Shown piece by piece: positions 1 to 11,677 of a stretch of DNA of 32,613 nucleotides (position 1 is its first letter; each line of letters starts with the position of its first letter). Source of the stretch: Ruminiclostridium sp. (GTDB taxonomy: Bacteria > Bacillota > Clostridia > Oscillospirales > Ruminococcaceae); assembly GCA_024682455.1 (NCBI GenBank), contig JAIKZF010000002.1:1-32613 (forward strand), given 5' to 3'. The notes beneath the pieces are model-generated. The model was not told where the DNA came from and ran no database searches. It was given only the letters and a program-made list of their open reading frames with translations. The position numbers and the translations under genes were made by a program.

Positions 1-3000
1 TACAGCATGGACGAGGTGAACGGAGGCTATGTGACGGGCTATGACCCCGACAGAGTTCCCCCGAGATTCAGGGAGATGAGCCGCCGGTTCGCGGTGCTGG
101 GGAATATGAAGTTCCGCGAGGCGTGGTTCAATTATACAGGCAGGCAGAGACGTTACTTCGACGGCACTGTGTTCTCCGAAGCTCACCTGAACGATTACCC
201 CATTTTTTCCAGCACTCTCCACTCTCTGCACAGGCTGTATGATGATCTGGAGCTTGACTACCTGATAATCGACGAGTGCTCGCTTATGAAGCGCTATCAC
301 GGGCTTACCGGTATGTGCAGGACGAAGCACATTATCCTCGTCGGCGACGAGAACCAGCTCCAGCCCGTTATAACCGCTCCGATGCTTGCAAAGCTCAATT
401 CCGTGAAGCGTGATCTGCATCATACGTACCCCAGGGAGGAGCTCAAAGAGATATATCTCGGCGAGGGCAGCTTTATGGCAGCCTGCGACGGGCTGTTCGG
501 AGACAGCGCGTCGCGCGTGCTCCTGAACGAGCACTACCGCTGCCACCCGTCGATCGCCGCATTTTTCAATAAGACGATCTACAATGACGAGCTCGATATA
601 AAGACCAATGACGACGGGCAGTTCCGCGTCAGGGTAAAGTGGTATGAGGGCGATTACTTCGAGAGAGAAGCCGAGACCAATCGCGACAACGACTATGTGG
701 AGATCGACGCCGACGATCAGACAGAAGCGGACGAAGCTCCCATGACGGGACGCGTGGTGAAGTCGAAAAAGCTCAACCGCAGACAGACCGACATCTTCAT
801 CAGGGAGGAGCTCCCGGAGCTCAGGGCGATGCTTGAGGCTTACCCGACCCGCTCCGCCTGCGTGATATGTCCACACAAGGATCCGATAGAGGTGCTTAAG
901 CAGGAGCTCGACCGGCTCGACGAGGAGGAACGGGACCGTATCGCCGCGCTTGAGGGCGAGGGCAATGCCGGTGATGACGACGGCGGGGAGCAGACGGGCT
1001 TCTACAATGCCGCGTACGGAGACGCCGCCGCGCTCACCGAGGAGGATCTGAACGTTTACGGGCAGCTTTCGAGCCTTACGATACACAAGTCGCAGGGAAA
1101 GACCTACGACTACGTATATATCCTGACCTGCCGCGACGATGTGGACAGCATGAGCGCTTCGTCGGTATGGGGACAGGAATTCAGAATGGTGAATGTGTCC
1201 GTGTCCAGAGCGCGCAGGGAGGTCTGCGTGATAACGTCGTCGCGCTGGCTGCCTCCGCTGCCGCCCGTTACGGGTTTCAGGGCTCTCCCCGCGGATTATT
1301 CAAGACCCGGCTACGGACTGTCATACGACCACCGCACTCTTCTTGCCAATCCCAACGACTTTTTCATGATCAGACTGTTCAGATATGTCAAGGACGCGTA
1401 TTCCGACCCGAAATACAGCGGACTTCTCGACGGACGGGACTACGGCGGCAGGTTCGGATTCCATAAATCGGGCATTACATCGGTTTTTGACAGAGTGCCC
1501 GAATACAAGAGAAGATACAATACCCGCACCACCATGAGCACCTTCCGCGATTCGGCGCTGGAGCTGTGCCTGTATGACGAGCTGGAGCGCAGGCTCCCGG
1601 ACGATGTGAGCGTGATACGCGAGCTGCCGCTGTCGGCTCTGCCGCACAGCTCCATTCACGACAGGTACGCAAGACTGTACAGGCTCGACTTCGCCGTATG
1701 CAGGGGCAACAGGTTCCTGTTCGGAATAGAGGTGCAGGGACAATACCACAGATATAACCCGAATGCCGGCAAGCTCGCCGAGCAGCGCAACAAGGACGAA
1801 TACAAGCACCGCTTCCTGCGGGACTGCTTCGATACCGACGAGCCTCCTGTCCTGTACTTCAACGCCGACGGCAGTACGTCGGACGAATATGACAGCGATG
1901 AGGATTACGGCATAAAGAAGCTGCTCACGGAGCGTCTCAATGAGCTGAAACATCATAATGACGCCGCCGTGCCGGAGCTTATCAGGGATTCGTACAATAC
2001 CGAGGCGATAGAGAGAGCTCTGACCGCTGACGTATTCGCCCGCAGGCTCGCGAGGGCTGCCGGGAGTCTGGATAAGCTGACCTACGGACTTTCCGGGACA
2101 GGACTTGCCGCGATGTCGGGAGACAACGTGCGGTTCGGCGAGCTTTACGGCCTTTGCCGGTACGGAGCCGTGCGCGCCTTTGATTACAGTATCATGTACA
2201 GCGTGATATTCTCGGACTTGGGCAGGGACCCGGCTGCGGATATCATTCATATACTGTCGCTGGGAGCGGGCTCCTTCCTGGACGGCTGGGCGGCAAAGTA
2301 CGCCTCGCTGTCGCCGTACGAGCCGATAACGCACGGTATGCAGTACATCATAAGCTACACGGGCGCGGAGCCGAGAGAACGGGAATACCGTTTCGTCGAG
2401 CAGGGCATGAACGGCAATATGTCCGCCGAGCTTGTCGGGGAGGATATGCTGAGGGTGCTTGTTGAGCGCGGGAACAGCTTTACCGGCGACGATAAGTCAG
2501 CGGATATACCGTTGGTGCTGATGTTCCCGGAGCCTCTGAACAATATGCCTCCCGCTCAGTTCGATCTGCTGACCGGGATTCTCGGAGAGCTGGTATACAG
2601 CCGCCGCACGTTATATATCTGCGTGCTGCACGATATCACTGCGGAAGCCGACGGCGCGGATCCTGCCGAAAGGATAGTCTCCGCCGTGAACCATGACGGG
2701 AGCTTCGCCGATATATGCTCGGACATAAGGGAATTGGTCGGCAGAGACGCGTATGAGGAATTTGAGCGTGCGGTGATCGACCGTGCAGGCGAGAACGACA
2801 ATGCGCTGAACGGTTCGGAAGAGCAGCCCGATCTCACCAAGAAGCTCGCGCCGGTCGGCAGGAACGGCGCTCGCGCCGATCCGTCCGTCTCGTACTGGAG
2901 ACCGCGGTACTGCGGGAAAAAACTGGATGTGCCGCTTACCGACATCAATAAGGATTTCAGGAATTATGACGGCGAGAGACTGCTGCATGAGCTGAAAGAA

Positions 3001-3090
3001 CGCTGCGGCTCTCTCGGCGAGGCGGTTACCTGCGCAGGCGGGACCGCGTTCCGGGTAATAAGACTGAGCAAGAGCGGAAAAACCAGATAA
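1..3090 (+). CDS. SF1 (Upf1/Dna2-like) helicase with PD-(D/E)XK-like nuclease domain, 5' partial
   Basis: The reading frame is open at the left edge, so the gene begins outside the window; residues are counted from the ATG at base 7. Superfamily 1 helicase motifs follow in order: Walker B DECS (D89-E90), motif III GDENQLQPV (113-121), HYRCHP (176-181), IHKSQGKTYDYVYI (from 359) and the arginine-finger motif VSRARREV (from 399). The Walker A motif must lie upstream. Residues about 515-610 resemble a PD-(D/E)XK or DUF2726-type nuclease, with LDF (D561), then EVQGQYH (E575, Q577), then a basic stretch with Lys. Residues 640-1027 match no family I recognise; LSLGAGS at 750-756 faintly recalls a Rossmann motif. 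By family, it would unwind and perhaps cut DNA or RNA. Only 16 bases separate it from the next giant gene, so the two are almost certainly co-transcribed. Helicase is secure; nuclease is probable. Confidence 0.85.
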   Translation, partial: YSMDEVNGGYVTGYDPDRVPPRFREMSRRFAVLGNMKFREAWFNYTGRQRRYFDGTVFSEAHLNDYPIFSSTLHSLHRLYDDLELDYLIIDECSLMKRYHGLTGMCRTKHIILVGDENQLQPVITAPMLAKLNSVKRDLHHTYPREELKEIYLGEGSFMAACDGLFGDSASRVLLNEHYRCHPSIAAFFNKTIYNDELDIKTNDDGQFRVRVKWYEGDYFEREAETNRDNDYVEIDADDQTEADEAPMTGRVVKSKKLNRRQTDIFIREELPELRAMLEAYPTRSACVICPHKDPIEVLKQELDRLDEEERDRIAALEGEGNAGDDDGGEQTGFYNAAYGDAAALTEEDLNVYGQLSSLTIHKSQGKTYDYVYILTCRDDVDSMSASSVWGQEFRMVNVSVSRARREVCVITSSRWLPPLPPVTGFRALPADYSRPGYGLSYDHRTLLANPNDFFMIRLFRYVKDAYSDPKYSGLLDGRDYGGRFGFHKSGITSVFDRVPEYKRRYNTRTTMSTFRDSALELCLYDELERRLPDDVSVIRELPLSALPHSSIHDRYARLYRLDFAVCRGNRFLFGIEVQGQYHRYNPNAGKLAEQRNKDEYKHRFLRDCFDTDEPPVLYFNADGSTSDEYDSDEDYGIKKLLTERLNELKHHNDAAVPELIRDSYNTEAIERALTADVFARRLARAAGSLDKLTYGLSGTGLAAMSGDNVRFGELYGLCRYGAVRAFDYSIMYSVIFSDLGRDPAADIIHILSLGAGSFLDGWAAKYASLSPYEPITHGMQYIISYTGAEPREREYRFVEQGMNGNMSAELVGEDMLRVLVERGNSFTGDDKSADIPLVLMFPEPLNNMPPAQFDLLTGILGELVYSRRTLYICVLHDITAEADGADPAERIVSAVNHDGSFADICSDIRELVGRDAYEEFERAVIDRAGENDNALNGSEEQPDLTKKLAPVGRNGARADPSVSYWRPRYCGKKLDVPLTDINKDFRNYDGERLLHELKERCGSLGEAVTCAGGTAFRVIRLSKSGKTR

Positions 3091-3106: not shown

Positions 3107-6100
3107 ATGAAGATAAATAAGGGCGATATACTGCTGGGGCTGTACAAGGTCACAGAGGATCCGATAACGATAGGCGGCTCGTCGCTTGTATGGAAGGTAC
3201 ACCACATAAAATGGGACATAGATATGGCGCTGAAGCAGCCTACGGACGATATCGCGGGAAGCATCGCCAATATGGAGCAGTTCGAGCATGAGTGCATGCT
3301 ATGGGCGTCGCTCGGTATGCACCCGAACATAGTGACCTGCTATTATGTGCGCAGGATATCGGGCACGCCGATGATATTCTCCGAGTGGTGCGGAGGCGGA
3401 AGCCTTTCCGACCGCATAGAGGACGGCACGCTCGCGGCTGACAGCTCCCGTATCCCGTATATCGCGGCGGACATAATGAAGGGGCTCTACTATGCCCATA
3501 ACTGCCGTCAGAAAATAATCCACAAGGACATAAAGCCCCGCAACATAATGCTGACGGACGACTGGACAGCAAAGATAACCGACTTCGGGAGCACCACGGT
3601 AACGACGGATCCTACGACCGAGAGATATATGTCCCCCGAGCATACGCTCCTTACGAGTGATCTGGCGCAGTACGGAGCCTCTGAGCTCACCTCCGCGTCG
3701 GATATCTATTCGTGGGCTGTGACCGTACTGGAGATGTATCTCGGCAAGGAGACCTGGAAGCTGGGAAAGCGTCCGCAGAACATACTCAGAAAGCCTGCCG
3801 CCGTAAAGGTCATACCCGGGGAAATGATCGGACTGCTCGACCGCTGCCTCAGAAAGGATCCCAGGGACAGACCCGACGAGACCGAGATACTGAAATGCCT
3901 CGGCGAGATCATCGGCAACGCGTCCGTGACCGTGGTAACGCGCGAGTCGCTTTTCGAGTCTGCCGATTCGCTCAATAACCGCGCTCTGAGTATGCTCGAC
4001 CTGGGGCTGGGCGATAAGTCGGCGGAGTGCTGGCGCGAGGCTCTGAGAGTATCGCCGCGGCACGCCCTGTCGCTTTACAATTACTCCCTGTTCAGGTGGA
4101 AGAACGGCCTCATCGACGACGAGGCGCTCTATACCGTGCTTCGGGACATATCCGATGACGAAAAGGCTGTCAAAAAGCAGATAAAGGAGCTTGACAAGTC
4201 GAGAAAGGTCGTATGCAGCATTGAGGTTCCCGACGAATACAGTATTCCGCCCGCAGAAGATGACGGCGAGCCAGTTACCCACCAAGCTCCCGTACTGCGC
4301 TTCGGTAAAATGGACAGACGCTTCGTGCTTTACGTGGAGTATATAAATGAGAAGTGCCGGCTGTACGATGCCAAGAGCGGAGAATTGATACTGGAATGCG
4401 AGACTGCGGGCTTTGATGACAGCGGTATCGAGTGGATGCCCGACGGTATGCCCGCCGTATTGGAGAAAAAGCGCGATACCGGCAGCGGCGTGTCGGAATA
4501 TAAATACAACAGCCTGTTGTTTGAGCTTGACAAGGTAAACGTATTTGTTTACGAGGATTGCTGCAACGCCTTCTTCGATCTCATAGTACATATCTCCGGG
4601 AAAAACGGCGGGTATGACCGCGAGTTCAGATTTACGCCTTTCAGCGGACCGGCTGCGATATATGGGGCAGGTCACAGCATATATGCCGCCATGTACGTGA
4701 ATGTGGGCGAGTACATACAGATCGTGTCCATCTCTCTTGAAGACCGCGCCGAGTATCTGTTCAGTATGGTAGATACCGCCGAGGTCATCGGAAGGTATAC
4801 CGAGATGTATACGGCTTTATGTGACAAACTGCGCAGACGCGGCACCTATTCCGCAAAAGGTAAAGTGATAAACCGCATGATGAATCTCCCCGATCTCGGC
4901 AGACGCAGGGAGACATTCGCGCTGCGCAGGGTGATAGCGGATAAGGCGGGCTATGGCGAATCGCAGATATCTCAGGCTGTATGGTATGAGCATCTGGACT
5001 GCGCTTACAAGGTAGCCATATCGGCTTCGGGCAGATTTACCGCGGCAGTGACCGAGGACGAGAGCTCGCCCCTTGATCTTATGCTGTATCTTGTTGATCT
5101 GGAAAAGAACGAGGCGCGCTATGTATGCATCGAAAGAGGTATGTATATCAGCAAGGTCGCCTTTATACACGATCACGTGATAGCGATCTGGTTTTTCGAT
5201 TCGGAATACCTTTTTATAGCAGATGAGGAGTCTTCCGTTCCGACATATATGATGTATTTTGATCCCATATCGAATTTCGTCTCCGATAAGATCAGGGTAA
5301 GTCAGATCCCGGAAGATGAGAACGGCGGACAGCCCGCGGACGACGCGATAAACAGCTTTATGCATGAAAGGGACTACTTCTGCTGGGCGGTCGACGATTA
5401 TAAGCAGTATGTCGCCGCGATCAAGAAAAACGGCGAATTCTCGGTATACAGCCTGAACACCGTTCTCGACGGGCTCAGCGGCGAGCAGGTGAGCGACGGG
5501 GACGACGAAAGGCTGAGACGTATTCTGGACGGTGAGGAGGAACAGACCGAGGGTTACAGCCGTGAATGGCTCAACGAACAGATAAGCTCGGCGACCCACG
5601 CCGAAAATAAATTAGCCCGGATGAGCGGGGATATAATAGACGATTTATCTGAGCCGGAAGAAGAAACAGAGTATGACGATGACTTTGACTTTGACGATGA
5701 CTATGACTATGACGACGAGCCAGAGGAGGAAACGAATAAGCAGAAGCAGGAAAACCTCGCCGAGATAGCCCGGAGCGTAAACGATCTCCGGCGCGAGCTG
5801 CACGAGAGGATAAAGGGTCAGGATCACGCGGTTGACGAGTTCTGCGACGGCATCTTCAACGCATACGCGGGCAGCGGCTCCGACCCGGAAAGAAAGCGCC
5901 CCAGAGCAGTATTCACCTTCGCGGGGTCGCCCGGCTGTGGCAAGACGCTTATGGCAAAGACCGCGGCAAGGGTACTCTTCGGAAAGGAGCCGCTGTTCTT
6001 CTCCATGACGGATTATTCCGGTCCGCAGTCTCATGAGGGTTTGATCGGCATTTCCTCGTTTTACAAGAGCAGTCAGCCCGGAAAGCTCACAATGGCGGTG

Positions 6101-8719
6101 CTTCAGGATCCGGATAACATACTGGTGATCGACGAGATCGAAAAAGCTGACGAGAACGTTATTATGCTGTTCTATCAGATGCTCGATGAGGGCAGACTGG
6201 TGGACGCTTCTCTCTCGGGCAGGTATGCGAAGAGCGGAGAACGTGACAGCGAGGAGATGGGAGAGCTTATCCGCAAGACGAAGGGCGTGGTCTCGTTCGA
6301 GAACACCATAATCATCTTCACGACAAATGTCGGCCGCGATCTGTATGAGAGCTCCTCCGCGATGAACAGCGCCCTGATACCGAAGAGCACGCTGATAAAC
6401 GCGCTTGCTACGGAGACCGACCCGATAACCGGCAAGCCCTTCTTCCCCACGGCATTCGTAAGCAGGCTGTCCACGGGATATCCGATACTCTTCAACCGCC
6501 TTACTCCCGACGCGCTCATCTCCATAGCACACCGCAATTTCACGCTATGCGCGGAGGCTGTCGAGAGAAAGTGGGGCATTTCCTGCACCGCCGACAACGA
6601 TGTGTACGCGGCTCTCCTGTATTCGGAGGGCGGCAGAGTGGACGGCAGACGGTTTGAGACAAAGGTAGACCGGCTGATACCGGCGAACCTCAGGTCGGTG
6701 CTCCCGTTTGCCGAAAACCATGACATTTCAAGAGTGCGCTTTTCCGTTTCGATGAAGGACGCCCCCGCGCAGGCGGCGGCTCTGTTCGACCCCGAAAAAT
6801 CGCGCACACGCGTTCTCGTATACGCGGATACGGAGTTTTCGGACAAGCTTCGCAAAGCGGGAGGGGAGAGCTTTAACTTCCTGTGCTCCGACCGTGTCTC
6901 CGATATCCTGGAGCTCGCGAAGAACAGCGAACCCGACCTTGCGCTCATAGATATCTCGATGAAAAGCAGCGATGCGAAGGAGGACAACGGCATGGTCACC
7001 GTCGCGGGAAGAACTGTCGCCGCGTCGCCGAGCGCGAGAAAGTGGAGATTCGGCAAGACGCTGTTCGAGGAGCTTGCCGAGATATGCCCGTGGCTGCCGC
7101 TTTATATGCTGGAGCCCGTAGATCAGAGCTACGGCGGCGAGCTGATATCGTACTTCATGAAGAACGGCGCACGTGACCTGATAAAGGAGCCTGCCGGCGA
7201 CGAGGAACTGAGCGCTATGTCCCAGGCTCTTATGACCGCCAGAAAGAACACCTACATGATAGCGCAGGCGGAGAAGCTCTCCTCGACGAGCAAGTCTCTT
7301 GCCTTTGACTGCTCGCCGGTTATTACAGAGAACGGCGTAAATATACGGCTCGAAAGGCTGCGTCTTATCGCGTCGCCTCCCGCCGAGGATATCCGGCTCG
7401 CTGTCAGCGCGGCGGAAAGGCCTACCGACCGTATGGACGATGTTGTGGGGCTTGACGGAGCCAAGAATGAGCTGCGCGGACTGATACGCTATCTTAAGGA
7501 TCCCCGCGGCTACGCGGCGAAGGGCTATCCGGTGCCGAAGGGCGTGCTGCTGTACGGCTCTCCCGGAACGGGCAAGACCATGCTTGCGAGAGCGGTGGCG
7601 GGCGAGTGCGGAGTAACGTTCATCGCGAAGTCCTCCGGCGAGTTTGCGTCCGCGTACAACGGAGTGGGAGCCGAAAAGATACGCGGCATATTCGAGAGCG
7701 CTCGCCGCAACGCTCCGGCGATAATCTTCATCGACGAGATAGACACGATAGCCGCGCAGCGTTCCGCGGGCTCGCATAACGACACTCTTAACGAGCTCCT
7801 AGCGCAGATGGACGGCTTCAAGGTCGACCTCAAGCGCCCGGTAGTGCTCATAGCTGCCACGAACTACGGTATTGAGCCCGGTGACGGCGGCATAGGCGTA
7901 ATAGACGAAGCTCTCCGCAGACGTTTCAGCAGGTGCGTGAAGGTAGAGCAGCCCGATCTGAACGCCCGCAAGGAGCTGTTCACGGTGCTTCTCGGAAAGA
8001 TCTGTGGCTGCACGGTGGACGACGCGGAGATAACAGCCGCCGCCGAGCAGACTGCCGGCGTAAGCCCCGCGATCATCAAGAAAATGGTCGAAAAGGCAAT
8101 GTGGAACGCTCTGGACAACGACAGACCGCTGGACAACGAGCTGCTTGACGAGGCTGTGCTCAGCGAGCTGTACGGCAGCGTCAGCGAGCTTACCGTGGAC
8201 GAGGTCAGGAGCACCGCGATACACGAGTGCGGACACGCCCTTATGTACTATATCAATCACGGCAGCGCTCCGGCGTATGTTACGGCGGTGTCGAGGTCGA
8301 ATTACGGCGGCTATATGCTGCCGGCGGAAAACGCGCGTAAAAAGGCGTATTATACCGGCGACGATCTCCGGGCGCGCATCAGGGAGCTGCTCGGAGGCAG
8401 AGCCGCTGAGATAGTGTTCTTAGGCGAGAGCAGCGGTATCACCACGGGCGTTGCCGACGACCTCAAGAGAGCGACCGCGATAGCGGAGGACTATATAATG
8501 AGGTACGGCATGGACACCGTTGTCGGTATGGCTGTACGCGGCAAAAGCTCCGATGAGATCATCGCGCGCGTGAACGCAATGCTGGCGGAGGAAATGGAAA
8601 ACACGATCTCTGTTATCGAATCTCACCGCGAGAAGGTACAGGAGCTCGCGGACAAGCTGATCGGGAAGAAATATCTGAACGCCGGGAATATAGAGTCCGT
8701 ACTGAAAGACATAGTATAA
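3107..8719 (+). CDS. Giant Ser/Thr kinase - beta-propeller - ClpB-like AAA+ - receiver-like - FtsH-like AAA+/M41 protease fusion
   Basis: This 1,870-residue protein starts at an ATG behind AAGGGAG. Residues 1-270 are a Hanks-type kinase: IGGSSLVWKV loop, Lys43, HKDIKPRN (D141), DFG (159-161), SPE (176-178). Residues 285-345 look TPR-like and about 385-830 probably form a WD40-type propeller. An acidic linker (about 845-876) follows. A ClpB-D2-like AAA+ module has GSPGCGKT (940-947) and VIDEIEKAD (D1009-E1010). A receiver-like domain (about 1235-1375) has D1282 and K1360. An FtsH-like AAA+ module has GSPGTGKT (1484-1491), FIDEID (D1543-E1544), pore aromatic Y1517 and arginine fingers. The M41 protease has HECGH (1706-1710) and a third zinc ligand near D1785 in TGVADDL. 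No membrane segment is visible, unlike FtsH. All catalytic motifs look intact. I infer an ATP-driven, signal-gated cytosolic protease; its substrate is unknown. Confidence 0.88.
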   Translation: MKINKGDILLGLYKVTEDPITIGGSSLVWKVHHIKWDIDMALKQPTDDIAGSIANMEQFEHECMLWASLGMHPNIVTCYYVRRISGTPMIFSEWCGGGSLSDRIEDGTLAADSSRIPYIAADIMKGLYYAHNCRQKIIHKDIKPRNIMLTDDWTAKITDFGSTTVTTDPTTERYMSPEHTLLTSDLAQYGASELTSASDIYSWAVTVLEMYLGKETWKLGKRPQNILRKPAAVKVIPGEMIGLLDRCLRKDPRDRPDETEILKCLGEIIGNASVTVVTRESLFESADSLNNRALSMLDLGLGDKSAECWREALRVSPRHALSLYNYSLFRWKNGLIDDEALYTVLRDISDDEKAVKKQIKELDKSRKVVCSIEVPDEYSIPPAEDDGEPVTHQAPVLRFGKMDRRFVLYVEYINEKCRLYDAKSGELILECETAGFDDSGIEWMPDGMPAVLEKKRDTGSGVSEYKYNSLLFELDKVNVFVYEDCCNAFFDLIVHISGKNGGYDREFRFTPFSGPAAIYGAGHSIYAAMYVNVGEYIQIVSISLEDRAEYLFSMVDTAEVIGRYTEMYTALCDKLRRRGTYSAKGKVINRMMNLPDLGRRRETFALRRVIADKAGYGESQISQAVWYEHLDCAYKVAISASGRFTAAVTEDESSPLDLMLYLVDLEKNEARYVCIERGMYISKVAFIHDHVIAIWFFDSEYLFIADEESSVPTYMMYFDPISNFVSDKIRVSQIPEDENGGQPADDAINSFMHERDYFCWAVDDYKQYVAAIKKNGEFSVYSLNTVLDGLSGEQVSDGDDERLRRILDGEEEQTEGYSREWLNEQISSATHAENKLARMSGDIIDDLSEPEEETEYDDDFDFDDDYDYDDEPEEETNKQKQENLAEIARSVNDLRRELHERIKGQDHAVDEFCDGIFNAYAGSGSDPERKRPRAVFTFAGSPGCGKTLMAKTAARVLFGKEPLFFSMTDYSGPQSHEGLIGISSFYKSSQPGKLTMAVLQDPDNILVIDEIEKADENVIMLFYQMLDEGRLVDASLSGRYAKSGERDSEEMGELIRKTKGVVSFENTIIIFTTNVGRDLYESSSAMNSALIPKSTLINALATETDPITGKPFFPTAFVSRLSTGYPILFNRLTPDALISIAHRNFTLCAEAVERKWGISCTADNDVYAALLYSEGGRVDGRRFETKVDRLIPANLRSVLPFAENHDISRVRFSVSMKDAPAQAAALFDPEKSRTRVLVYADTEFSDKLRKAGGESFNFLCSDRVSDILELAKNSEPDLALIDISMKSSDAKEDNGMVTVAGRTVAASPSARKWRFGKTLFEELAEICPWLPLYMLEPVDQSYGGELISYFMKNGARDLIKEPAGDEELSAMSQALMTARKNTYMIAQAEKLSSTSKSLAFDCSPVITENGVNIRLERLRLIASPPAEDIRLAVSAAERPTDRMDDVVGLDGAKNELRGLIRYLKDPRGYAAKGYPVPKGVLLYGSPGTGKTMLARAVAGECGVTFIAKSSGEFASAYNGVGAEKIRGIFESARRNAPAIIFIDEIDTIAAQRSAGSHNDTLNELLAQMDGFKVDLKRPVVLIAATNYGIEPGDGGIGVIDEALRRRFSRCVKVEQPDLNARKELFTVLLGKICGCTVDDAEITAAAEQTAGVSPAIIKKMVEKAMWNALDNDRPLDNELLDEAVLSELYGSVSELTVDEVRSTAIHECGHALMYYINHGSAPAYVTAVSRSNYGGYMLPAENARKKAYYTGDDLRARIRELLGGRAAEIVFLGESSGITTGVADDLKRATAIAEDYIMRYGMDTVVGMAVRGKSSDEIIARVNAMLAEEMENTISVIESHREKVQELADKLIGKKYLNAGNIESVLKDIV

Positions 8720-8773: not shown

Positions 8774-11677
8774 TTATCCGAGGACCTCGGTCAGAGTGTT
8801 TATGAGCTCGTTTATGTCGATCGGCTTGGCTATATGGCCGTTCATTCCCGCCGCCTTGGCTTTCTGCACGTCCTCGCTGAAGGCGTTGGCGGTCATCGCT
8901 ACGATCGGTATTTTCGAGAAGTTTTCGTCGGGCATGCATCTTATCCTGCGGGTCGCCTCATAGCCGTCCATGATCGGCATCTGGATATCCATAAGAATGC
9001 CGTCGTAGTAGCCGGGCTCGGAGGCTTCGAGCATATCGAGAGCCGCCTGACCGTTCTCGGCGGTCTCTGTCTCAAACCCGAGCTTCCGCAGTATTTTTGC
9101 GGAGATCTCGCGGTTTATCATAACGTCGTCCACCAGGAGCAGCCTCATACCCGTGAAGTCCGTTTTCTTCTCCCCGGCGGCGGTCTCGCTCTTCGCTTCC
9201 GTTTGTATCTCGTCGGAGCACTTTGTCAGGGAGAGCGATACGATGAACTCGGAGCCCTTTCCCTGTGCTGTTCTGACGGATATGGTACCGCCCATCATAT
9301 CAATTATGCTCTTTGTGATAGCCATGCCGAGGCCGGTGCCCTGTATGCCGCTTACCGTTGAGGTGCGCTCACGCTCGAAAGCGTCGAATACCTTCTCGGC
9401 GAATTCCGGCGACATACCTATGCCGTTGTCCTTTACGTGTATCTCATAGGAGCAGCTGCTGCCGCGGAGCGAGGTCTGGCGCAGCGTGACCGAAACGGCT
9501 CCGTCTGCGGGAGTGAACTTATAGGCGTTGCCGACAAGATTGATGAGCACGCGGCTCAGGCGGTTCCTGTCGCACATGACATTATAGACTCCTACCTCGG
9601 TGTACGTTACGGTATAGTCGATGTTCTTCTCCCTCATCTGCGCGGAGAAAAGGTCGCGGATATCGTCCATGAGCGAGCGCAGATCCGTCGGCGAGAGCTC
9701 CGGCTCCATTCTGCCGCTTTCTATGCGGCTCATTTCGAGTATATCGTTTATGATAGCCAGCAGATGTCTGCTGGAGCCGTCAATTTTGCCGAGATATTCC
9801 CTTGTTTCCTCCAGCGTCAGCTTTTCGTCCTTTGCAAGCTCCACATAGCCGATTATCGCATTCATAGGCGTGCGGATATCGTGGGACATATTCGAGAGGA
9901 AGGCGCTTTTTGCCTTGCTGCTTTCCTCCGCTTTGATCTTCTGAGCTTCGGTATTGCGCTCCCTCTTGTTGAGTATCTTGTATATATTGAATATCAACAC
10001 AAGGCTGAACATTATCAGGAGCATCTGAATAAAGCTGCTGCGGGTGAAAGTATCGTCTATGCGGTTGAGCTGCTCGCTCAGGTGAGCTGCTTCCTCCGCG
10101 GCGTCGTTTTCGCTCATTATCACACCGTGCTCTGCCATTTCGGAGTTATAGTATGTGCTCACGTTATCCACAATGTCCTGCGTCTCGGAGATCGAGACCT
10201 GCCTTACCCACATCAGCGAGGTAAAGAATATCAGGAACAGCAGCGCCAGCCATACGACCGTGGAGGTGCCGAAGCGGTGGTTTTTGTCCTTGTTGAAGAT
10301 AAAGCGGAAGTACACGATTCCGAGTATCCCCCAGAACGCCAGCAGCAGGTACGACTCGGCGGAAAGGGAGCTGCCCGCGACAAGGTCAGGTATAAGCAGG
10401 AGCCCGATCAGGGCGGAAATGACGACGCCCGCGATACCGGAGAGCTTCACCTTTTTGTTGCTGCTCAGCTTTGAGCATTTGTATGCCGCCGCGGAGGTGT
10501 AGGCGTAGGCTATCGTAGTGCCGACGGTAATGACATCGACCACCCAGCCTATCGCCGTTCTTCCGAGGAACGGAATGACCGTTGACAGCGCGAGTATGGC
10601 GAATATCGCCGTGCGGGGTATTCCCGTAGGTGTGAGCCTACCTAGCGAGGCGGGTAAGATGCCGTCCTTCGCCATTGCGTACAGAAGGCGGCTGGAAGCT
10701 ATGATGCTGCCTATTATGCCCGTGCAGACCGCGCCCGCAAGAGCAAAGCCGAGTATAATCATTCCCGTGTCGCCGCAGGCTGTCTTCATGGCGTAAAATA
10801 CCGGCATACTCTCGACGCCGGTCGCCGAACCGAGATCCGCGATATAAGCCGCGCTGTTCGCGTAGCCTTCCGGTACCGAGGTGGTCGCTATCAGGACGAG
10901 CAGTATATAAGTCGCGGCTCCGGCGATTATCGCAGTCACCATTATCACGAGTATGCGCTTTATCGGGAATTTGTATTCCTCGGTGGAATTGGACACCGAC
11001 TCAAAGCCGACGAAAGCCCACGGGGCGAGAGCGGTGATGCCGAGTATCTGCGAGGCATCGCTCACGTTCGGCGCAAAGGCGGGATCGAACAAATTGTCCG
11101 CGTTGTTGCCGTTCATGACGGCAAGAGTGAAGCATACGACTACTCCGATAAAAAGCGCGGCGGCGAATATTAACTGGAGAAGTACTGCACCTCGCTTTGA
11201 GTACATGCAGACCGCGCCGAATACCGTCATAACGACGATCTCGGCAAGTATCTCGCCGCAGTACACGTCATAGCCCGCTATGGTGTACAGGTACCATATC
11301 TGCAGCGCTCCGCCGAAGAGGCTTCGCACCACAAGCGCCAGGGCGGTGACGTTCGCCCAGAGTATCGACATATACGCGAGTATCATAAACCACGCACTGA
11401 GGAAGCCGTGGTCGTCGCCGAACATTTCCTTCGCGAATGTAAAGGTTCCGCCCGATTCGGGGCAGAATCGCATCATATATCTGTAATTCACGGCTATAAC
11501 GAGCATGATGACCGCGCCTATCGTCATTCCGACGGTCGTTCCGGCGGGACCCGCCATTGGCAGAAAGGTGGTCCCCGGCATCATGAACGCTCCCCAGCCC
11601 ACTATGCAGCCGAACGATAACGCCCATGCCGCGGCGGGGGATATGTATGGATTCAGTCTGCCGCTTTCAGTTTTCAA
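8774..11677 (-). CDS. APC-family amino-acid permease fused to a hybrid histidine kinase
   Basis: The 967-residue protein starts at a TTG preceded by GAAAGG; the next ATGs lie inside the first membrane helix. Residues 1 to about 450 are an APC-superfamily permease with roughly 12 hydrophobic helices, including the early GWGAFMMPG motif. Two more helices enclose an extracytoplasmic loop of about 70 residues. A coiled linker leads to the kinase: H-box SHDIRTPMNAIIGY (H599), N-box (N717 in GNAYKF), G-boxes DNGIGM and GTGLGMAI. The C-terminal receiver has D850-D851, phospho-acceptor D897 in LMDIQMPIMDG, and K951. Transporter-kinase fusions are known in the CbrA group, which uses a sodium-solute symporter; here the transporter half is APC. 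I infer that it senses or imports an amino acid and relays phosphate to a partner encoded elsewhere. No DNA-binding output domain is present. Confidence 0.92.
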   Translation of the reverse strand: MKTESGRLNPYISPAAAWALSFGCIVGWGAFMMPGTTFLPMAGPAGTTVGMTIGAVIMLVIAVNYRYMMRFCPESGGTFTFAKEMFGDDHGFLSAWFMILAYMSILWANVTALALVVRSLFGGALQIWYLYTIAGYDVYCGEILAEIVVMTVFGAVCMYSKRGAVLLQLIFAAALFIGVVVCFTLAVMNGNNADNLFDPAFAPNVSDASQILGITALAPWAFVGFESVSNSTEEYKFPIKRILVIMVTAIIAGAATYILLVLIATTSVPEGYANSAAYIADLGSATGVESMPVFYAMKTACGDTGMIILGFALAGAVCTGIIGSIIASSRLLYAMAKDGILPASLGRLTPTGIPRTAIFAILALSTVIPFLGRTAIGWVVDVITVGTTIAYAYTSAAAYKCSKLSSNKKVKLSGIAGVVISALIGLLLIPDLVAGSSLSAESYLLLAFWGILGIVYFRFIFNKDKNHRFGTSTVVWLALLFLIFFTSLMWVRQVSISETQDIVDNVSTYYNSEMAEHGVIMSENDAAEEAAHLSEQLNRIDDTFTRSSFIQMLLIMFSLVLIFNIYKILNKRERNTEAQKIKAEESSKAKSAFLSNMSHDIRTPMNAIIGYVELAKDEKLTLEETREYLGKIDGSSRHLLAIINDILEMSRIESGRMEPELSPTDLRSLMDDIRDLFSAQMREKNIDYTVTYTEVGVYNVMCDRNRLSRVLINLVGNAYKFTPADGAVSVTLRQTSLRGSSCSYEIHVKDNGIGMSPEFAEKVFDAFERERTSTVSGIQGTGLGMAITKSIIDMMGGTISVRTAQGKGSEFIVSLSLTKCSDEIQTEAKSETAAGEKKTDFTGMRLLLVDDVMINREISAKILRKLGFETETAENGQAALDMLEASEPGYYDGILMDIQMPIMDGYEATRRIRCMPDENFSKIPIVAMTANAFSEDVQKAKAAGMNGHIAKPIDINELINTLTEVLG

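Follow-up and report, generated by a model that had tools for sequence, protein, structure and literature searches.

A candidate soluble protease that joins a Ser/Thr kinase, two unlike AAA+ modules and an M41 zinc site in one Ruminiclostridium chain

The stretch of DNA analysed here (the window; 32,613 nucleotides) is the entire contig C94 of a 1.94-Mb draft genome of Ruminiclostridium sp., which is 86% complete and lies on 109 contigs. Near its beginning, downstream of a truncated SF1 helicase gene (P0002), it encodes a protein, P0001, that is predicted to join a kinase, two different AAA+ motors and a zinc protease in a single molecule (Table 1). A preliminary description of the locus had proposed that these domains are read in one frame of 1,870 residues, in a set order and with every visible catalytic motif intact, and all three points are borne out: the frame is uninterrupted; Pfam returns Pkinase, AAA_2, AAA and Peptidase_M41 in that order, each above its gathering score; and K43, D141, the DFG motif from D159, K946, K1490 and HECGH at 1706-1710 are all in place.

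Table 1. Features of the window and of one related gene cassette (residue ranges are approximate)
Feature	Coordinates	Strand	Residues of P0001	Evidence and remarks
SF1 helicase gene (P0002)	1..3090	+		AAA_11/AAA_12; 5' end lost at contig start, frame open to base 1
Kinase-TPR-middle-AAA_2-receiver-like-AAA-M41 gene (P0001)	3107..8719	+		One frame, 1,870 aa; Pfam; ortholog L124
Hanks-type Ser/Thr kinase	3134..3916	+	10-270	Pfam Pkinase 1.1e-33
TPR-like segment	3944..4156	+	280-350	TPR_16, E 0.02
Middle region	4184..5611	+	360-835	Fast evolving, 37% to ortholog
Acidic linker	5612..5746	+	836-880	22 Asp/Glu in 45
Clp-D2-type AAA+ module	5765..6721	+	887-1205	K946, D1009-E1010, N1074, R1120, R1181
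Degenerate receiver-like domain (predicted)	6800..7192	+	1232-1362	D1282
FtsH-type AAA+ module	7430..8146	+	1442-1680	AAA 3.2e-42; K1490, D1543-E1544
M41 zinc protease domain	8174..8704	+	1690-1866	Peptidase_M41 8.4e-25; H1706, E1707, H1710, D1785
Frame reading as amino-acid permease, histidine kinase and receiver	8774..11677	-		From sequence
Related cassette: kinase-LRR, unassigned gene, FHA-kinase, PP2C, kinase-TPR, core	L020:3-12943	one strand

The kinase domain has the motifs of the Hanks type, with the catalytic Lys (K43), the HxD motif (HKD, ending in D141), DFG (from D159) and SPE all intact, as judged by Pfam and an alignment with a pseudokinase paralog, described below. The TPR-like segment behind it is also detected in relatives, by TPR_2 at 0.0021 in the ortholog and by TPR_1 at 2.6e-7 in a relative whose kinase and protease are split (L019). 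The middle region had been labelled propeller-like, a label that we could not confirm: Pfam gave no match to it, a two-row profile returned a single PDB match at 0.88 that we take as chance, and a single-sequence fold reached a pLDDT of 37.1. Its fold may be called propeller-like at most. Between the two AAA+ modules lies a receiver-like domain that appears to be degenerate, with an Asp at the phosphoacceptor position in 49 of 56 aligned rows and an acidic pair and Lys that are not conserved. Its profile matches the YycF receiver at 1.1e-5 (hmmsearch), a value that a de novo designed protein reaches as well; Response_reg is found in 13 and OKR_DC_1_N in 14 of 52 members (Pfam, E up to 1), and single-sequence hhalign against the window's own receiver gave a probability of 0.7 out of 100. 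No membrane anchor is predicted in P0001, whose highest 19-residue hydropathy is 1.24 vs 3.28 in the FtsH of the same genome. Pfam found no Clp_N in P0001, where the kinase occupies that place, and the best NCBIfam match, FtsH_fam, covers residues 1436-1851 only, at 307.3 bits vs an equivalog cut-off of 600; none of the best 25 of 45 matched NCBIfam families reached its cut-off. As judged from motifs, hydropathy and a predicted fold of the core, P0001 is an anchor-free chain with two unlike AAA+ modules in series, an M41 domain at the end and an intact kinase in front.

An error of assembly, or a frameshift that joined separate genes, might in principle produce such a chain from a draft genome of this many contigs, and kinase and core do occur as separate genes in relatives, but this explanation is extremely improbable. 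Because the frame is unbroken, the same chain recurs in a second species and both genomes carry a fused paralog besides, P0001 is a genuine single chain and no assembly error. The second instance came from a search for homologues of the same architecture, which yielded an independent ortholog, L124, in another species of the genus (G201), 55% identical over 1,759 aa and through the joints between the domains. The contig of L124 begins inside the gene, which leaves the first ~124 residues, K43 among them, outside the sequence; as far as that sequence reaches it keeps HKD and DFG, and the 1.4 kb that its contig holds 3' of the gene show no conserved neighbour. Identity between the two proteins is 63% in the kinase (145 residues), 75% in the TPR segment, 37% in the middle region, 68% in AAA_2, 58% in the receiver-like domain, 78% in AAA and 55% in M41. 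A phage or plasmid origin of P0001 was rejected, since tblastn matches were partial only: among the matching records (3,366 plasmid and 247 phage), none covered 80% of the query at a single site.

The second fused protein of the source genome, P0004 (1,555 aa, contig C5), likewise has an ortholog in G201, L123, at 53% identity over 1,584 aa and with flanking neighbours conserved at 83% and 69%. Both proteins lack the ATP-site Lys, the catalytic Asp (HGG and HTA replace HKD) and the DFG Asp, and both have intact AAA+ and M41 residues; between them, identity is 41% in the kinase-like domain, 34% in TPR, 36% in the middle region, 68% in AAA_2, 79% in AAA and 73% in M41. By these substitutions the domain is a predicted pseudokinase, in a paralog that has been retained in both fusion-bearing species, and the paralog would most likely serve in regulation, either as a subunit of a mixed ring or as an allosteric partner.

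Behind the head, the part of P0001 from AAA_2 to M41 forms a core that recurs in other genomes. A single-protein scan of genome contigs with P0001 found no relative, whereas an alignment-based scan did, with a three-row profile that runs from AAA_2 to M41 and omits the kinase (A2). Among the best 80 loci listed, at least 29 (L019-L047) match about 800 or more of 990 residues, and 27 of these 29 matches reach the M41 end; the other 51 match less. The core is present in 9 of the 71 genomes of the genus, the source genome included (in three of the nine, the listed match was the second half and a local profile search added the first), and in 2 of the 200 genomes of the family of L019, counting the genome of L019 itself. 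For the order and the class, where two candidates were scored per genome, the counts are lower bounds: at least 13 of 345 genomes and, with a different profile, at least 3 of 391.

The residues expected of working motors and a working protease are kept almost throughout an alignment of 56 rows, which includes P0001 and some near-copies and whose named rows are mostly Clostridia, with Tannerella, Acidobacteria and Myxococcota also represented. Among the Walker, sensor and arginine-finger residues, K946, T947, D1009, E1010, N1074, R1120 and R1181 are found in 55 rows, K1490, D1543, E1544 and N1586 in all 56, and each of the zinc-site residues H1706, E1707, H1710 and D1785 in 54. The two rows without a zinc site, L036 and L043 from Tannerella, end before the M41 part and could be either unfoldases without a protease or broken genes; the row without AAA_2, L041 (9422-13597), encodes the Clp-type and FtsH-type halves of its core in separate, consecutive frames. 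Pore-loop aromatics are common, if not universal (Tyr, Trp or Phe at 986 in 48 rows and at 1517 in 44). The Pro-Gly of the second region of homology (RPGRF), present in all nine canonical FtsH proteins compared, is absent from 55 rows, L039 being the sole exception. Its loss from the FtsH-type motor is a signature of the family, and the arginine-finger geometry of that motor may therefore differ. An AAA-M41 tree, which carries long-branch warnings, parts 54 cores from the nine canonical FtsH by a 97/100 branch, with L039 as the core nearest to FtsH. Hydropathy segments above 1.6 occur in 7 of 55 relatives of P0001. FtsH-sized M41 frames (610-772 aa) were found in all 14 core-bearing genomes tested, and the source genome has an FtsH too, so the core family is no replacement for FtsH. 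On these comparisons we consider the TM-less core of AAA_2, receiver-like, AAA and M41 domains to be a family of its own, with no member described in the literature that we found.

The heads of this family appear to be exchangeable. N-termini, taken from the first Met close to the beginning of the frame, were scanned in 51 of 55 relatives, with very short or cut ones omitted (the second copy in L022, L138, L141 and L143). Only three have a kinase or pseudokinase head (L124, L123 and L017), and the other 48 gave no kinase match. Four carry an RNase H1 N-terminal domain (Cauli_VI, best 2.2e-14), one Clp_N (0.00055) and one BUD22 (0.00046), and most of the 51 had no Pfam match. A profile of 22 N-termini that we judged alike weakly matches ClpA (best 0.00058, over a 31-residue stretch) and Hsp104 (0.011); unrelated proteins follow close behind (troponin C, 0.044), which makes the label of a Clp_N-like head tentative. 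The N-terminal head has been swapped among members of the core family.

In two loci the kinase stands beside the core as a gene of its own. In L019 (Lachnospiraceae RUG14162) a separate 1,120-aa kinase-TPR gene, with its kinase at 143-404 (3.9e-31), shares the strand of the core and ends 88 nt ahead of it; residues 3-350 of P0001 match this gene product at 38.5% over 379 aa (3e-67), with no significant match past residue 350. In L020 (Clostridiales RUG199) the kinase-TPR gene (Pkinase 5.1e-31, TPR_2 4.7e-7) lies 38 nt upstream of the core and is 36% identical over 372 aa (1.5e-60). The same row of genes in L020 (Table 1) includes an FHA-kinase (FHA 2.1e-15, Pkinase 5.8e-39) and a PP2C (PP2C_2 3.3e-9), and may possibly be a phospho-signalling protease cassette. 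On the minus strand of L020 a further kinase-TPR gene has WD40 repeats after the TPR (9.4e-20), and no WD40 match was found in the two kinase-TPR genes immediately upstream of the L019 and L020 cores. The kinase-TPR proteins have N-terminal stretches with repeated Thr in acidic surroundings, which could serve as FHA ligands.

A homologous kinase gene adjoins the core in these 2 of the 54 core loci searched, and three others of the 54 are the fused proteins themselves; at least 1 kb of DNA lies upstream of 48 of 55 cores, with flanks short in some. In a kinase tree, a 100/100 branch sets the kinases of the four fused proteins and of the three split genes against nine other kinases, with the L042 kinase, encoded upstream of a sister-group core, falling among the others. 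A tree of the cores places the four fused proteins together (100/96) and groups them, with moderate support (90/89), with L019, L020, L027, L040 and L042. Within this sampling the histories of kinase and core thus match, and the P0001 gene is best understood as a gene pair in fused form.

The interpretation that we favour, at a probability of roughly 0.6, is that P0001 is a soluble, self-contained AAA+ protease under phosphorylation control through its own Ser/Thr kinase head. By analogy with known AAA+ proteases we assume a hexamer with stacked rings, in which the AAA+ modules would bring P0001 chains together as a Clp-like ring on top of an FtsH-like protease ring. Clients would be sensed or captured by the head, made up of kinase, TPR and middle region. 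The moment at which a client is threaded through both motors, the Clp-type and then the FtsH-type, to be cut at the zinc site would be set by phosphorylation, whether on the head or linker, on the client or on the pseudokinase partner. P0004 would join in one of the two capacities proposed for it above. That phosphorylation gates both unfolding and proteolysis within a single chain had already been suggested for this protein; the parts and their intact motifs are there, and the gating itself is what we infer. Phosphorylation control gains from the split pair (2 of 54 loci), from the FHA-kinase and PP2C in one of these loci and from the kinase tree, and it loses from the 48 of 51 relatives without a kinase match at their N-termini, on which account the family as a whole does not depend on a kinase head.

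The kinase might instead mainly mark clients, with the phosphorylated clients pulled into a machine that is not itself gated. A precedent is McsB-ClpCP (PMC8370763), in which the arginine kinase McsB marks proteins for the Clp protease ClpCP. HKD and DFG are retained in L124 as far as it is seen, and the TPR segment and fast-evolving middle region (37% identity vs 78% in AAA) look like a client-binding surface. However, the FHA-kinase, the PP2C and the repeated Thr of L020 suggest signalling within the machine just as much, and because FHA and PP2C neighbours accompany the core in that one locus, we prefer a kinase acting on the machine and regard client marking as unlikely, though worth keeping in view. 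Beyond the single protein, we propose tentatively, and with less assurance than for phosphorylation control of P0001, that the cores are a family of soluble two-motor AAA+ proteases with exchangeable regulatory heads, and that in this genus the active-kinase and pseudokinase paralogs may form a mixed, kinase-gated degradation machine.

Several known systems share parts of this design. With the FtsH (M41) family P0001 has in common HExxH with a distal Asp and an AAA module with Walker A and B; it differs from FtsH, m-AAA and i-AAA in being anchor-free, in the Clp-type AAA+ module in front, in the receiver-like spacer and in the lost Pro-Gly, and it stays below the FtsH_fam cut-off in a core family that the 97/100 branch sets apart. 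Like the class I Clp/Hsp100 proteins (ClpB, ClpC, ClpA, ClpV) it has a D2-type AAA+ module, a Walker B of the FDEIEKA type and a sensor-2 Arg, and some core relatives share a Clp_N-like head with them by weak profile matches, but P0001 contains one Clp-type module only and carries its protease in the same chain, M41 in place of ClpP. The kinase has the full catalytic motifs of Hanks-type kinases and, unlike them, is fused to a protease. Among kinase-TPR-WD40 proteins, the nearest comparison is with the split relatives, which are kinase-TPR proteins, one of them (L020, minus strand) with WD40. McsB-ClpCP shares with P0001 the idea of kinase activity feeding an AAA+ protease, although there the components are separate proteins, the kinase is of an unrelated type and the protease is the serine protease ClpP. 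The FtsH ternary systems of Kaur et al. 2020 (PMC7159879) resemble P0001, in the portion of that paper available, in being regulated and in having a double AAA+ protein that includes an FtsH-type module; their two modules are both FtsH-type with the first inactive, and their partners are MoxR and vWA, whereas P0001 has in first place a Clp-type module whose Walker residues are intact. That portion of the paper makes no mention of the term M41, and the available extracts of PMC1262709 and PMC8195603 describe neither a chain nor a core of the P0001 type.

The preliminary description knew of no protein with this domain order, and our search of the open-access literature agrees: it brought up no description of a chain of a kinase, two AAA+ modules and M41, nor of an AAA_2-receiver-AAA-M41 core. 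Regulated proteolysis in bacteria normally relies on separate adaptors, kinases, unfoldases and peptidases. If the proposed mixed machine exists, a single complex would sense, phosphorylate, unfold and cut. P0001 and its split relatives would offer a direct way to test phosphorylation control of an AAA+ protease, and the core suggests that motors of the Clp and FtsH types can be placed one behind the other, raising the question of how a single substrate is shared between two unlike rings.

The upstream helicase invites another reading. Mokosh is an anti-phage system that consists of a kinase plus a helicase, and P0001 might cooperate with the SF1 helicase in a similar defence. The helicase stop codon lies 16 nt before the P0001 start codon; the PADLOC profile MkoA matches the P0001 kinase (8.4e-21) and, with another part of the profile, the helicase (1.9e-17), for which PADLOC reports partial MkoA/MkoC matches; and a CARF (Csx1-like) gene lies ~1.3 kb upstream of each of two nearly headless cores (L022:9404-12298, the second copy of that locus, and L141:7488-10382). 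The PADLOC kinase and AAA models also match the kinase of L019 and other cores, however, so these matches are not specific. Helicase homologs (E up to 1e-40) were found in 2 of the 71 genus genomes, the source genome and G184; the latter, whose homolog also carries DUF2726 (1.9e-5) after the helicase part, gave no core match, and G201 (80% complete), which carries both fused proteins, gave no helicase homolog. Because of this distribution a role in defence is a minor rival, and we consider it quite improbable. The site of the pseudokinase paralog has conserved neighbours, which also speaks against defence, as does a scan of viral sequences (profile A5), in which none of the best 80 of 343 loci had the full core in one gene: 79 match the FtsH end only, as judged from their ranges, and the wider one, L196, consists of two separate genes.

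Other neighbours accompany cores with different heads. YbjN-like genes (~160 aa), some in two copies, lie near 11 of 52 core loci, beside cores that lack a kinase head (L018, L021, L023, L025, L030, L045, L047 and L126-L129); of 15 members, 12 match Pfam YbjN at E up to 1, with 1.5e-8 as the best value, and a profile of them has one PDB match, at 0.27, taken as chance. All six YbjN-positive genomes among the 71 of the genus are among the nine core-positive ones (hypergeometric 5.9e-7, for genomes that are not independent), with the YbjN gene on a different contig from the core in G193 and G201. We found no YbjN gene in the source genome of P0001 and rejected it as a partner of P0001 on that account; YbjN would partner other head types at most. 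In G201 a YbjN-like gene (L180:6179-6655) adjoins an AAA gene with AAA_lid_6 rather than a core. A PP2C gene suspected from a motif near L025 and L044 was dropped, as Pfam gave no match. Directly upstream of a Tannerella core gene lies an Hsp70-like gene (L040:6832-9474; HSP70 5.3e-62). Finally, L186 (8091-12965) carries its FtsH-type AAA+ module in duplicate, one copy after the other, and hence three AAA+ modules per chain, behind a head that by eye resembles the RNase-H1-N-like heads.
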